From: Telopea speciosissima
Lineage: Eukaryota; Streptophyta; Magnoliopsida; Proteales; Proteaceae
Length of the DNA stretch: 64,000 nucleotides
NCBI RefSeq assembly: GCF_018873765.1
Contig: NC_057923.1
Coordinates: 9,250,413 to 9,314,412, forward strand
Direction: 5' to 3'
Shown: positions 26,713 through 39,954 of the stretch, piece by piece
Layout of the letters: each line of letters begins with the position of its first letter
Position numbering within the stretch: the stretch's first letter is position 1
Notes under the pieces: generated by a model
The model's database searches: none
The model's input: only the letters and a program-made list of their open reading frames with translations
Told to the model about the DNA's origin: nothing
Translations under genes and position numbers: made by a program

Positions 26713-28689
26713 AAGGATGCTTTTTACTATCATAAATCAGTTCTCGATTTGTTCTCGGACATTACTGGTCAAGAGATTAATTTTGGTAAAAGTGAAATTT
26801 TCTTTAGTAAGAATGTCGAGGAGGGGCGTAGAAACCACCTATGTCGCCTCCTCAGCATGAAGGGCATGACTTCTAAGTCTGTTTTCTAAGGCACCAGACT
26901 CTGTCCTGCTAGATCTAAGTGTAAGGATTTGTCTACCCTAGTGGATAGAGTCCACTCTAAACTCTCCACCTGGAAGGCTAACTTTCTATCCTATGCTGGC
27001 CGGAAAGTGTTGATACAATCTGTGTTGGCATCTACCCCAGCTTATCATATGTCTCACTTTCTTGTTCCTAAAAAGACTTGTAGGGAATTGAACCAAATTT
27101 ACAACCATTTTTGGAATAATCGGGCGAAAACCCAGACCCCTAATCGGTTAATAGGTCGGGACAAGATCTATAAACCTACGACCCTTGGAGGGCTTGGTCT
27201 CCGCAAGTCCGTCACCCATAACCATGCCTTGATCACCAAACTTGGGTGGCGGCTGCTGAATGAACTCCACTCTATGTGGGCCAAACTTCTTAAAGCTAAG
27301 TATTTTCCCAACTCTTGGCTTTTTGACCCCCGTGTTGGGAAGCGGAGGGGTTCATGGGTTTGGAATAGTATTGCCAAAACCCCTCCTGACTTAAGGAAAA
27401 TTGTGTTTCGTCGGATTGGTAATGGTCGCACTACATATTGTTGGTTTGATCCATGGATTCCAGTCATGACAGGTCAGGATTCGCCCTAGGTAAAACTTCC
27501 TTTACCCAACTTTATTCATGTTAGTGATTTTATTACTAATAATACCTGGATGGTTCCCACATTAGTTGGGTGTTTTCACCCATCCACTGTGAATACCATT
27601 ATGAAAATCCCACTCCAAGGGGATGAGGATAAGTGGTGGTGCACTCTGTCCAGGAATGGAATTTTTTCCACTAAAAAAATAGTTCAATTTCTAGATAGCC
27701 CCTTGCCCTTGCACTCTTCTCATTCCAAATGGTGGAAGTTCTTTTGGAAATTATCAATTCATCCAAGATTTAAAATATTTTTTTGGCGTGTTTTACATGC
27801 AGGATTACCAACTCGTGGCACCCTTTCGAAATGGATGGATATCGAGCCTCAATGTGCTCTCTGTGGTTCTAGTGTCGAGTCCATCTGGAACCTATTTTTG
27901 TCTTGTGATTGGACTAAGCATATATGGGCTTCGAGTCCCCTTGGATTGAGAACCGAGCATTTAGCTGCTCCATCTCTCTTTCATCTCGTTTCTTCTTTAC
28001 TTGGCACTCTTCAGTTGGATAAGGCATCCCTTCGGTGGTTTTTTTCTGTTTTTATTTTAACATGTTACTTTGTATGGCATTTAAGGAACAAGGTCGTTAT
28101 GTGTAAGGCTTTTCCGGACCCAGTAATGGTCCTTAACAATGTGTCTCGCTGGTTGGCGGCGATGACTATTTCCCCCCCAACTAAGGATTCTCATGCGCCT
28201 ACATCCCAATAATTCTTGCCATCTATTCTTAGTAATCAACAATTTAACTTGCATTTATCTGGGTTGGTAGTCGCAGGAGTTTTTGAGCCAGATTCTAAAT
28301 TAGCTCGGTGGACTTATAAGGTTTTGTTAGATGGTGAGCCTCTCTTAACAGGTGCAGGGTCGTTGGACACAGCTACAGCCCTGGACGCTGAGGTGGTAGG
28401 TCTGTGGACAGGTTGGGCAGCTATGCGGCATCATCATCTCTTAGTTACTAATATTTGGGTCTCCAACCCCACCCTTCTTAAAATACTACATTTCCAATCC
28501 AACTCTACTATCTCGCGTACATATTTACCTTTTTTGCTTGAGGTTTTGGATGCTAATGAACACTTAAAAGGTTTTAATTGTCAATTGTACAGCACTGCTA
28601 GTTCCTTTCTTTAGGCTGTAAACACGTTGGTTATATATATATATATATATATATATTCTTTGGTTTTCATCAAAAAAAAAAAAAAAAAA
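26713..28689 (+). mobile_element. 5'-truncated L1-type LINE
   Basis: Plus-strand remnant of a non-LTR retrotransposon. Frames give the end of reverse transcriptase (TGQEINFGKSEIFF near 26770), the connector (WKANFLSYAGRKVLIQS) at 26929-27489, the zinc-binding zf-RVT domain (FWRVLHAGLPTRGTLSKW then CALCG) at 27550-28212, and an RNase-H-like tail at 28216-28614. It ends with a (TA)n run and an A tail to 28689. Each segment is closed by a stop, so it is inactive. The 17-bp repeat CATGCAGTAGTCTACTG lies immediately left (26696-26712) and again at 28724-28740, as expected for target-primed integration. A 34-bp stretch separates the A tail from the right repeat. Confidence 0.88.
28631..28656. repeat. 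(TA)n microsatellite
   Basis: About 12 TA units just before the LINE A tail. Confidence 0.9.
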
Positions 28690-35277: not shown

Positions 35278-37113
35278 CTACTCCAGATGATCAGGGTCTT
35301 GTCTAACAAAGATGAGTGGAAATTCATCAAACTGTTCAGAGAAATCTTGGCTCTCACCAATATTTCGCAATGAATGGTAAACTTGATCCATAGAAGACCT
35401 ATCATTTGGCCTAGAAACCACACAACCACACGCAACATTCAAAAACTGCAGAATTTCATCATCATGGCCCTCTCCAACGAGAGACTTGTCAATAGCATCC
35501 GTGATCCTACCAGCAGCTGATAGCTGATTGACCCAATCTACTAGATTGCCCTTGAATCCTTCGTCAGCATTGGTGACTTCAAGAGGCTTCTGCCCAGTCA
35601 CCAACTCAAGGAGTACTACCCCTAACCCGTAAACATCTCCTTTCATTGAAGGAACCATGTTGCTCGAGTTCTCCGGAGCCACATAACCAAATTCTCCAAA
35701 ATGTCCCTGTACAAAAGTGCTCCCATTAGAGCCAGCAGAACTCATCATGAGCCTTGCAAGCCCAAAATCTATTATACGAGCATCAAGCTCTTCGTCAAGG
35801 AAGATCACATCAGAGCTAATGTTCTGGTGCAGGAAAGCGGGCTGGCAGCCATGGTGAAGCCAAGCCAAACCCCGTGCCGCACCGACACCAATCTTAAGCC
35901 TTGTTGGCCAATCCAATGAATTAAAGCGACTATTTGTTTTAGAACTGCCATGCAACAGAGAGAAGAGAGTCCCATTATCCATATGCTTATACACCAAAAG
36001 CTTCTCATTTTCAACGAAGCAGAACCCCAAAAGCGGCACCAAATTCGGATGCCTGAGCTGCCCTAATCTGTTCATCTCGGAGCGGAACTGCTTTTCACTA
36101 AGCTTGCAAGTGTTGAACCGTTTGATGGCAAGGGCGGATCCATCAGGCAGAACTGCCCTGTAGGTAGTCCCTGCCCTGGTGGAGATGATAATGTTATCTG
36201 GGTCAAAATTATTAGTCGCAGCCATTAGGTCGACCAATTTGATCTTTACAAGGGGTTTCTGAAACAAGGAGACTTGAACGAACTTGTGAGCCCTCAACCG
36301 GTATGCCCAACTGCTGTCCTCATCTTTTCCAGTCCCATACCTTCTCCTGCGGCGTCGACGACTGGACTTGATGAAGCACCACCACCAGAGTGCGAGACCT
36401 AACAGCAGTGACACGAAGGCACCAAGAATACCAGCAGCTATGATGATTATGAGGTTCTTCCGACTCAAAGCACCGCACTTAGATTTGAGAGGGCTGCCGC
36501 AGAGTCTGCTGTTGCCATCGAAGTCTGCTGAGTCGTAATTGGACAAGAAGGAGGGGATCGAGCCGGAGAGATGGTTATTGGCAACCGAGAACTTCTTGAG
36601 ACGATTGAGACCCGAGAGCTCGTAAGGGATGGAACCAGAGAGGTGGTTATCGCTGAGGATAAGGCTGTTGAGATACTTGCATTTGACAAGCTCGGAAGGT
36701 ATAGGACCCGAGAGATCGTTCTGGGAGAGATCTAGGGTTACGAGGAAAGGCAACCAGGTGCAGATTTCAGAAGGGATCGTACCAGAAAGAGAGTTATCAG
36801 AGAGATCGAGATTCTGGAGGCTCTGGCAGTACTGCAAAGAAGAAGGGATTCCTCCTCCGAGCTTCATCGTAGGAAGAGTCAGACCGATAAGGCGATTCTC
36901 CTTCTCGTTCCAGCATGTAGCACCGACGAACTTGCAGATATAGCCGACTGTAGTGTTGGAGAAGTTCCAAGTGCCAAGCTTCCCGTCAGGATCGTTGAGG
37001 GAGTTCTTGACACCTTTAAGACACTTCACATCATCCTCGAAGGCTGCAGAGAAGGTAATCATGGAGGTAACCAGGAGAAGAGTGAACCTGGTCGAAGACC
37101 TCGATGTCGCCAT
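35278..37113 (-). CDS. LRR receptor-like pseudokinase, BIR2/BIR3-like
   Basis: Single 611-aa exon. In order: signal peptide (about 1-24), LRR N-terminal cap with paired Cys (C31, C60, C67), about five leucine-rich repeats (about 75-200), transmembrane helix (about 221-247), an Arg-rich juxtamembrane stretch, and a kinase-like domain (about 300-585). The VAIK lysine is kept (K331) and DFG is kept (449-451). The HRD motif reads HQN (429-431), and the following catalytic-loop Lys and Asn are replaced (S433, V436). The glycine loop is degenerate (STRAGTTYRA). This matches the BIR2/BIR3 family, plasma-membrane pseudokinases known to bind SERK co-receptors and restrain receptor-complex formation without ligand. 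The intronless structure is usual for that clade. It differs from the Arabidopsis BIR2 I remember in keeping DFG. Confidence 0.93.
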   Translation of the reverse strand: MATSRSSTRFTLLLVTSMITFSAAFEDDVKCLKGVKNSLNDPDGKLGTWNFSNTTVGYICKFVGATCWNEKENRLIGLTLPTMKLGGGIPSSLQYCQSLQNLDLSDNSLSGTIPSEICTWLPFLVTLDLSQNDLSGPIPSELVKCKYLNSLILSDNHLSGSIPYELSGLNRLKKFSVANNHLSGSIPSFLSNYDSADFDGNSRLCGSPLKSKCGALSRKNLIIIIAAGILGAFVSLLLGLALWWWCFIKSSRRRRRRRYGTGKDEDSSWAYRLRAHKFVQVSLFQKPLVKIKLVDLMAATNNFDPDNIIISTRAGTTYRAVLPDGSALAIKRFNTCKLSEKQFRSEMNRLGQLRHPNLVPLLGFCFVENEKLLVYKHMDNGTLFSLLHGSSKTNSRFNSLDWPTRLKIGVGAARGLAWLHHGCQPAFLHQNISSDVIFLDEELDARIIDFGLARLMMSSAGSNGSTFVQGHFGEFGYVAPENSSNMVPSMKGDVYGLGVVLLELVTGQKPLEVTNADEGFKGNLVDWVNQLSAAGRITDAIDKSLVGEGHDDEILQFLNVACGCVVSRPNDRSSMDQVYHSLRNIGESQDFSEQFDEFPLIFVRQDPDHLE

Positions 37114-37291: not shown

Positions 37292-37318
37292 AAGAGAGAG
37301 AGAGAGAGAGAGAGAGAG
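37292..37318 (-). repeat. (CT)n tract upstream of the BIR-like gene
   Basis: On the coding strand of the receptor gene this is a CT run about 180 bp before the ATG, as often seen in plant 5' leaders and core promoters. Confidence 0.8.
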
Positions 37319-37428
37319 GAAGGAGGACTGAAAGAGAGGTTTTATATTGACGTGAAACATAAGTCACTAAGTCAGTTTGACCCAACTAATGTGCCTAATT
37401 AGTTTTGATAAATCCATTATTTTTTAAT

Positions 37429-39945
37429 GGAAAAATTACATTTGTCTCCCCTGTACTTTGCCCTAATTGCACATTTCTCCTCTTAATTTTCCAACCTTAC
37501 ATTTTGGCCCCTTATAGCTAACGGTGTTAGGATTCTGTTAGTTAATGGTTTGAAAAGACAATATTACCCTTTAATAATAAATTAAAACTGCATTTCCAAT
37601 TCTACCCTTCTCATCATCTTCAACCTAAAATACTCATATCTTTCTTACTCCATTGCCAGCACCACCACTGCCGCCGTCGCCTCCTCCTCCACCGTGAACA
37701 AATAAGAAGAGATTAGAGGAGAAAGAAGGGATATCGATTGGTAAAAGATCACTGAAGGTTGCTGCTGGAAGGACTAAAACATTAGAAACCGAACCGCCGC
37801 TGCAACCTCCGTCCTGCTCACATAAAAAAAACAAAACCTGTGGACCTCTGGTTCTGCCCACGTTTTATATTTATGTCTTTCATCTAAATCATCTTCCTGA
37901 TAATTGCCAGAGAAAATAAGAAAGAAGAAGAAACAGAGAGGCAGAAGGAGCCCTTTGGTTTCTCCTGACCAGAGGGCAATCGATTCCGGGAAGGAGAGAC
38001 TAGAGAGAGAGAGAGAGAGAGAGATTAAGGGGAGAGATTCTGTATTTAAATTTTCCTTTTGTTTTATTTGTTTATCAACTTTTGAATTTTTATCTGTTAA
38101 TAGATGAGATAAGATGAAAGATCTGATTATTTTCTTTCTGCTTCTTATTGCAGTGCTTTTATGTCTTTCATTCTTGGATTCTAACAGGCATTTTCGTTGT
38201 TTGTTTCCCTTCTCACCCAAATAGCACGAAAGATTCACTTCCACCAACATAATTGGTAGTTTTTTTATCACTCTTTTCAATGGAATTTTTGTTTCCTTTA
38301 CTGCTGGTAATTCATAAATCCAGGCATTTTCAAGGTGTACAGAAACCACACACAAACAGAGCATACCTTGTAGCAGAGAACCCAGATGAGATTTTAGTTC
38401 TACAAGTTACTTTTTGCTACAATTTGGTGAAAAAGTGGGAGAATGGTCACAAGAAGTAAGGCATGCATTTCTTTTGGATGAAGGGATCATTAAGGCCCAC
38501 CCATGTCTTCCATAACAGCCTAACTGTCTCCCTAACTGCTACCTTCTCATCATTCAATTCATCTTCTTCGGTCCCATTTCTCTCTCTCTCTCCCTCTCTC
38601 CTTCATCCTTCTCTTCCTGCTAACTACATTGAAGAAGAAGAAGAAAGATTACTTCTTTCATCACCAAAAGATGAAATGGGGAAGAAAGAAATCCATTATC
38701 AACAACAACAACAACAGCAACAACTACCACTCTGCATCCTCTCGCCCCTCCTTGCTCTCTCAAGTCTTTCCCATCACTTGGATTTCAAAATTCAAGCAAA
38801 TGGGCATCAAATCCGAACCCAAACATTCTAAAACTGAAGAATCACCGAATTTTACTAATATGGTCTCCGACATTAGGAAAAACAGAGGTTCTCCAGCGAG
38901 TGTGAAATGTGAAGATCACGAATTTGAAACAGAAACACCTCCAAAGAAAATTATAAGGGATTCGGAACTGATAAACAGAAAATCTAGGAAGTCAGGTGGA
39001 AGAATTACAGAGAAATAGCAGTTCTTATCGGAAATAGAATCAGTTGAAGAGAATCAGCAGAGTTTAATGGGTTTGAACCCAATTGAAACGATTCAAACGA
39101 CCGTGGACCAGAATTACAGTTCAAGGCAATCTCTTTACATTTCTTCTCATGCGAGGAAGAGCAATCAGGAGAGAAATTCTCCGGATTCAGAAACAACCCA
39201 TCAATTGGGTCGGATTCAGAATAGAAGAAAGCAAAAGACTTGAAGATTGAGTTCTCGTTTAGATATGAAAAACCGAGAAAATCTGTGTGCGTCAATGGAG
39301 AATTACAGAGGAGAACAAAACAGAGTAGCAAAGTTAAAGTGTGTTCTCCAAGAACTCCTTCGAAGAGAGAGGTCTGCAAAATAAAGAGAACCGTCTGGAA
39401 TGAAGAAAAGTTGGTGAAATTGGGCCCTGAAGGTGGGAATGGGTTTCGATAGCAGAAGAAGAAGAAGAAATTAAGCAACACAGAGGATGACTAGAGACAA
39501 CCAATTGATATTAGAAGAAGAAGAAGTAATTAAGAACAACTGCATGTGTGTGTTCTCCGCGCCTTTCTTCTCTAGCCGCAGAGCATAAGAGTAGGGGGCA
39601 TATCGCGGGCGATTTCACGGTTCAGAGGTTTTTTTTTTTTTGGTAGAAACGGTTCAGAGGTTGAAGATGAAGTTGGAGATAAAAAGAAATGGCAAGTCAT
39701 TCTCCCATCTTATTTTCGTTTTTTATCACAAGGGTAAATGAGTCATCTCACAGTGACCTAGGGTTAGTTTGGGCATTATAAAAGACTAACTACGACATAT
39801 CAGCACTTAACAGACAAATATTAACGGCAGGGGAGGTCTTAGTAAACTTTCAGAAATTATAAGGGAATCGTATAAAAGGTGAGAAAATCAAGAAGAAGAA
39901 CGTGTAATTAAGACAAAGCACAGGGGAGGTAGATGTAATTTTCCC
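37429..39945. mobile_element. Pack-MULE (non-autonomous Mutator-like element)
   Basis: A 2517-bp element with perfect 9-bp target duplications TTTTTTAAT at 37420-37428 and 39946-39954. The ends are inverted: left GGAAAAATTACAT, and right ATGTAATTTTCCC, whose complement is GGGAAAATTACAT. Similarity of the arms continues for about 60 bp at roughly 80% (shared CTCCCCTGTRCTTTG). A 9-bp duplication and long terminal inverted repeats define the Mutator superfamily. There is no transposase; instead the interior carries a host-gene fragment (OVATE family, 38671-39452) and GA-rich leader-like sequence. It lies about 315 bp upstream of the BIR-like gene start. Confidence 0.87.
38671..39452 (+). pseudogene. 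OVATE-family (OFP5-like) gene fragment captured in the MULE
   Basis: The frame from ATG 38671 begins MKWGRKKS and continues with an Asn-rich tract and SLLSQVFPITWISKFKQM, the N-terminal signature of the OFP5-like clade. It hits a stop at 39016-39018, then the same frame continues (FLSEIESVEENQQS) to a second break near 39235-39245, where the reading shifts. The next frame gives KVKVCSPRTPSKREVCKIK at about 39331-39387, the block that in OFP5-type proteins precedes the linker to the OVATE domain. The C-terminal OVATE repression domain itself is absent. OFPs are plant transcriptional repressors that bind TALE homeodomain proteins; this copy should be inactive. Identification is by motif memory, without alignment. 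Confidence 0.7.
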
Positions 39946-39954
39946 TTTTTTAAT

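Follow-up and report, generated by a model that had tools for sequence, protein, structure and literature searches.

A Pack-MULE of Telopea speciosissima carrying an OVATE-family gene fragment, with its likely donor gene, OFP-free relatives and further filled copies in the same genome

The stretch of DNA analysed here (64,000 nucleotides of Telopea speciosissima, referred to as the window; C8:9250413-9314412 of an 823-Mb assembly of 1287 contigs) contains a Pack-MULE carrying a fragment of an OVATE-family (OFP) gene, as a preliminary description of the window had proposed. The likely donor, sister copies of the filled element and OFP-free relatives are all present in the same genome. Assignment to the Pack-MULEs follows from the length of the target-site duplication (TSD), the terminal repeats, the lack of a recognised transposase and the donor. 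Via the likely source gene and the element copies devoid of the piece, capture of the host-gene piece is readable almost base by base. It is quite probable that an already existing element broke, that donor sequence was copied under guidance by microhomology, that synthesis re-entered the element 8 bp upstream of its exit, and that the filled element subsequently transposed.

The element and its borders comprise the following features:
37429..39945, + strand: whole Mutator-like element (MULE), 2517 bp, delimited by the TSD and the terminal repeats
37420..37428, no strand: left TSD TTTTTTAAT, exact 9-bp match to 39946-39954
39946..39954, no strand: right TSD TTTTTTAAT, exact 9-bp match to 37420-37428
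37429..37498, + strand: left terminal inverted repeat, 70 bp, 55/70 identical to the reverse complement of 39876-39945
39876..39945, - strand: right terminal inverted repeat, 70 bp, pairing with 37429-37498

The base-exact ends given earlier, i.e., the duplication on either side and the inverted termini GGAAAAATTACAT / GGGAAAATTACAT, were recovered, with the terminal repeats extending further than previously noted (70 bp, 79 % identity). Within the window, the 28-base terminal core (AAATTACATNTNNCTCCCCTGTACTTTG) has two matches at ≤3 mismatches, both located at the element ends (expected number 0.00). According to PMC3310237, MULEs are defined by TSDs of 9–11 bp and possess long terminal inverted repeats, which usually measure about 100 bp or more. 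The exact 9-bp duplication falls within this range, while the 70-bp repeats of the window copy are shorter than those of a typical MULE. None of three open reading frames of the window element matched a Pfam family above cut-off, i.e., no transposase was recognised. A Pfam scan of the element body for sequence of host origin (seven open reading frames of the OFP-free copy L034 and two of the window element) likewise yielded nothing over the curated cut-off, with four sub-threshold matches (E 0.02–0.06), and an Rfam scan of the window gave 0 matches.

The suggested genome-wide check for further copies of the ends revealed a large family: the 28-base core occurs 239 times at ≤1 mismatch (reversed control, 0), and related left ends were scored at 40 places out of 942 candidates. 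Target-site duplications were surveyed in 18 sequences (the window copy, three other filled copies and 14 OFP-free copies). An exact 9-bp TSD, mostly composed of A and T, is present in 12 of them including the window copy, one further sequence has a TSD with one mismatch, and no 9-bp TSD was recognised in the remaining five. Three of the 12 exact TSDs are pure A or T runs, so that the duplication length cannot be fixed there.

A search with 37701-39680 as query, in which 40 of 92 candidates were scored, distinguished OFP-free from filled copies. In the former, two pieces of the window element make up a continuous body:
37573..38382, + strand: left body common to OFP-free copies, K2P distance 0.068-0.096 to 12 OFP-free copies; includes a GA stretch at ~38002-38024
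39385..39470, + strand: right body piece; 34 of the 35 scored OFP-free copies have it directly next to 38382

In the sole exception among the 35, the left piece alone is present. Thus, the OFP fragment sits within an element body that is known without OFP, a circumstance overlooked in the preliminary description. Four filled copies were found among the candidates scored, i.e., the window copy, C4:20148263-20150212 (C4 copy), C2:70490976-70492165 (L030) and C2:66917048-66918230 (L031). They occupy four separate places, three of them with 9-bp TSDs (two being homopolymer runs), indicating mobility after capture. In a further relative (L004, C3:66380363-66383628), a similar right arm (~92 % over 39651-39850) adjoins a different interior of ~0.9 kb. 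This interior recurs in the genome (25 matches in 24 scored candidates, three places lying beside listed left ends), and no donor was recognised among these candidates; it may perhaps represent another captured or inherited body.

The host-derived part of the window element is composed as follows:
38383..39384, + strand: captured OFP piece, 1002 bp, two blocks matching the donor locus with 94.1 % and 96.6 %; ambiguity of 4 bp on the left and 1 bp on the right
38383..38670, + strand: 5' flank or leader taken up from the OFP gene; the donor counterpart measures 279 bp
38671..39018, + strand: remnant of the OFP reading frame, 115 codons followed by TAG
38831..38835, + strand: junction of a 303-bp in-frame gap with AAC microhomology, 101 codons of the donor being absent; common to all four filled copies
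39016..39018, + strand: premature stop, GAG of the donor to TAG; common to all four filled copies
39206..39207, + strand: 1-base deletion relative to the donor; in the window copy alone among the four filled copies

The search for a parental OFP gene led to an intact OVATE-family gene on contig C2 (L032, C2:65780839-65782185), which is the likely donor. Its uninterrupted frame encodes 448 aa with an OVATE domain at residues 374-430 (E 1.5e-24). The piece recurs there (C2:65781167-65782472) without surrounding element sequence, and the terminal-repeat core was not found in 6 kb around the donor, the best match having 10 of 28 bases wrong, as befits the donor of a Pack-MULE. Relative to this gene, the captured piece comprises 279 bp of 5' flank and the coding sequence up to nucleotide 1019 (codon 340), minus 303 bp from about codon 54 onwards. 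The interior, for which the preliminary description had used the label OFP5-like, was correctly recognised as an OVATE-family fragment. The captured part does not extend to the OVATE domain, which, in line with the earlier observation, is absent from the 115-aa fragment; with this domain missing and the frame closed after 115 codons, the fragment lacks the attributes of a functional OFP. The damage had been described as one stop and one frameshift. Both are present (TAG at 39016-39018, missing base at 39206/39207), but the deletion is followed by another stop when read in the frame of the donor (donor codon 286), and the 303-bp in-frame gap had been overlooked. Since this gap and the TAG stop are common to all four filled copies, the piece was already broken before spreading, and the case shows that a fragment can spread even if broken when multiplication began. 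Constraint on the coding fragment is not visible, as 18 of the 23 codon changes between window copy and donor alter the protein (78.3 % vs 76.7 % expected without selection). The GA-rich stretch near 38000, formerly considered as a possible captured OFP leader, instead belongs to the body of OFP-free elements (37573-38382); the actual OFP 5' region is 38383-38670, with its CT-rich stretch at 38577-38600.

An 8-bp sequence flanks the captured piece on both sides:
38375..38382, + strand: AGAGAACC bordering the captured piece on the left; of 12 aligned OFP-free copies, 10 contain it exactly once, the window and C4 copies twice; the donor has AGAAAACC
39385..39392, + strand: second AGAGAACC, at the right junction, direct repeat of 38375-38382

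In OFP-free copies, the single 8-mer is located at the capture point, with one change in the two aligned copies that deviate. It is found on both sides of the OFP piece in the filled copies that have the left body (window, C4), and the right junction is identical in all four filled copies, including the C2 pair. The latter two copies (L030, L031) are without the left body; their OFP part begins at 38490 and is preceded directly by a left arm like that of OFP-free copies, which points to an additional rearrangement afterwards. In L031, the outermost left end could not be recognised, though TTAAATATATGGTG is present on both flanks.

The left edge of the donor (AGAAAACC) shares seven of the eight bases of AGAGAACC, the last four being an exact run, and one base is common to donor and element at the right edge. 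Microhomology of the kind expected from gap filling or FoSTeST is hence present at the left junction. Among 200,000 random junctions between element consensus and donor, agreement in 7/8 bases was reached in 0.097 % and a run of at least four exact bases in 2.3 % of draws; the exact 4-bp run is therefore weak evidence by itself.

A sequence of events compatible with these junctions would start from a non-autonomous Mutator-like element, with a body as in the many OFP-free copies, which breaks at AGAGAACC. Repair synthesis would exit the element at this 8-mer and switch to the near-identical AGAAAACC upstream of the OVATE-family gene on C2, from where ~1.3 kb of 5' flank and coding start would be copied, 303 bp being skipped then or soon after. 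Re-entry of synthesis into the element 8 bp upstream of the exit would double AGAGAACC. The filled element would then have transposed with formation of 9-bp target duplications, one of the four copies landing 315 bp upstream of a receptor-kinase gene. Of this scheme, the element, the donor-like gene, the OFP-free and the filled state as well as the junctions and damage common to the filled copies are observed, and the break, the copying with its direction and the transposase in charge are inferred.

The relative order of capture may be judged from sequence distances. The captured piece differs from the donor by K2P distances of 0.034-0.039, the filled copies among themselves by 0.0035-0.023, and the bodies of the window and C4 copies from 12 OFP-free copies by 0.068-0.10. 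A body tree of 20 sequences (two of the four filled copies and 18 OFP-free ones; midpoint-rooted, without outgroup) groups both filled copies with L033, L036 and L078 (100/97), while 3 of 17 inner branches are strongly supported. Counted from the node at which the nearest OFP-free copies diverge, branch sums amount to ~0.055 changes per site for the window copy and 0.047 for the C4 copy. Since these sums exceed the donor distance of 0.034-0.039, capture most likely postdates the split from the OFP-free copies. This order is suggestive only and weakened by the donor distance of the non-coding 279 bp alone, which is 0.0485 and thus near the element path. Based on the midpoint-rooted tree and the distances without an outgroup, the OFP-free state would be the ancestral one.

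Compared to Pack-MULEs (Jiang et al. 2004, as cited in PMC8903248 and PMC13317346), the element agrees in its terminal inverted repeats, the 9-bp duplication, the lack of a recognised transposase, the host gene fragment with identifiable donor and the occurrence in several copies. It differs in that the fragment entered an element whose body has many copies without OFP, and in that an autonomous partner was not found when 150 scored MULE-domain matches (of 827 candidates) were compared with 100 listed terminal places (of 239), the nearest match being 17.7 kb away. Animal Pack-TIRs formed by gap filling or FoSTeST, as described in PMC8277862, share with the present case a donor, filled and unfilled elements, junction microhomology and several post-capture copies. 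In contrast, a plant Mutator-like element is concerned here, and its unfilled state is known from paralogous copies rather than from an orthologous place; the 8-bp re-entry overlap is an additional detail. The fusion model for Pack-CACTA and other Pack-TYPE elements (PMC8903248) also places a gene fragment between transposon arms, but both arms observed here belong to a single element type divided at one position, a pattern that the model does not predict.

Gene acquisition by plant Mutator-like elements is described as not understood (PMC3310237), the validity of the animal gap-filling models for plant Pack-MULEs is left open as worth exploring (PMC8277862), and a review allows for a mechanism yet to be discovered in the case of unlinked genes (PMC13317346). 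Elements of the Pack-MULE type have been reported for the lotus genome. In the open-licence literature, no earlier report of this element or of OVATE capture was found, no title or beginning of an abstract was recognised as dealing with an OVATE family protein captured by a transposon, and nothing was found on Mutator-like transduplication via synthesis-dependent strand annealing. The element is ordinary as a Pack-MULE; what makes it valuable beyond routine is that the donor can be compared with unfilled and filled copies within a single genome. On balance, it appears to represent a base-resolved case of plant Pack-MULE capture by microhomology-guided template switching in an element that already existed. 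The genome contains the donor, many unfilled copies and four filled ones, and the 8-bp overlap at re-entry would be diagnostic, setting this route apart from fusion of neighbouring elements. As the family is large and includes unfilled as well as several filled copies, with one donor, competing models become testable by counts of junction overlaps across it.

In the case of fusion of neighbours, two element copies flanking the OFP fragment would have lost the ends facing it and then transposed as a single unit. This model is documented in PMC8903248, where it was advanced for Pack-CACTA and further Pack-TYPE elements, and the location of two filled copies about 1.1 and 4.7 Mb from the donor on its contig is what local movement could give. 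It requires, however, two independent inner breakpoints, while the element halves meet at one point of the OFP-free element with an 8-bp overlap. Two independent breakpoints in a ~2-kb element would come to lie within 8 bp of the same position in ~1 % of cases (arithmetic estimate); the convergence is therefore a poor fit to fusion, which, also given the absence of the terminal core from 6 kb around the donor, is considered unlikely. If instead the OFP piece had entered the element as a mobile or filler fragment with duplication of the 8-bp AGAGAACC, the perfect direct repeat around the piece in the window and C4 copies would be accounted for. Such a duplication does not require that seven of the eight bases already exist at the left edge of the donor (0.097 % by chance), and the piece is plain genic donor DNA from edge to edge, rendering this origin quite improbable. 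The reverse polarity, with an OFP-bearing ancestor giving rise to OFP-free copies by deletion between the two AGAGAACC repeats, is very improbable. Deletion between the repeats would recreate the OFP-free site exactly and the unrooted tree could take its root on the stem of the filled copies, but the midpoint root falls elsewhere, the donor-to-copy distance (0.034-0.039) is smaller than that between filled and OFP-free copies (0.068-0.10), and 35 OFP-free copies stand against four filled ones among those scored. Template switching into an existing element is hence the preferred reading.

A different question concerns the consequences of the insertion for the adjacent gene:
35278..37113, - strand: LRR receptor-kinase gene, 611 aa, with LRR and kinase domains; 315 bp between its start codon and the element

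The previously estimated distance of ~315 bp holds, with the ATG at 37113 on the minus strand. Recruitment of the element, either by supplying promoter or small-RNA sequence to the receptor gene, as suggested earlier, or by RNAs silencing the donor OFP gene, could draw on this proximity and on 479 exact 21-mers common to the window copy and the donor (longest exact run, 113 bases), which would make small-RNA cross-talk possible in principle. The lack of visible constraint on the coding fragment and the orientation of the captured frame, which points away from the receptor gene, argue against such a role, and it is regarded as improbable.

A paralogue of the receptor gene at C3:9634472 has the gene and upstream sequence in common with the window up to 37343, leaving ~85 bp to the insertion, with no clear alignment beyond this position. 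The left flank of the insertion has two paralogous matches besides itself. When an empty site was sought by searching and joining the insertion flanks, the paralogous upstream region did not align across the site and no empty site was recognised; the right flank yielded one 58-bp match with the paralogue, which is AT-rich and >1 kb out of register. Neither of the two paralogous loci has a match to element sequence. A pure (AG)13 tract is located between the receptor gene and the element (37293-37318).

Active kinases usually carry HRD. The translation of the receptor kinase (35278-37113) has HQN at this place, which suggests a pseudokinase as in BIR-type proteins. About 100 bp to the right of the element, the segment 40116-40218 matches 39 other scored places with 73-86 % identity and has the appearance of part of a short dispersed repeat, which we presume to be perhaps a SINE. 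Elsewhere in the window, open frames at 26929-28212 resemble by eye what we take to be the end of a non-LTR retrotransposon polyprotein.
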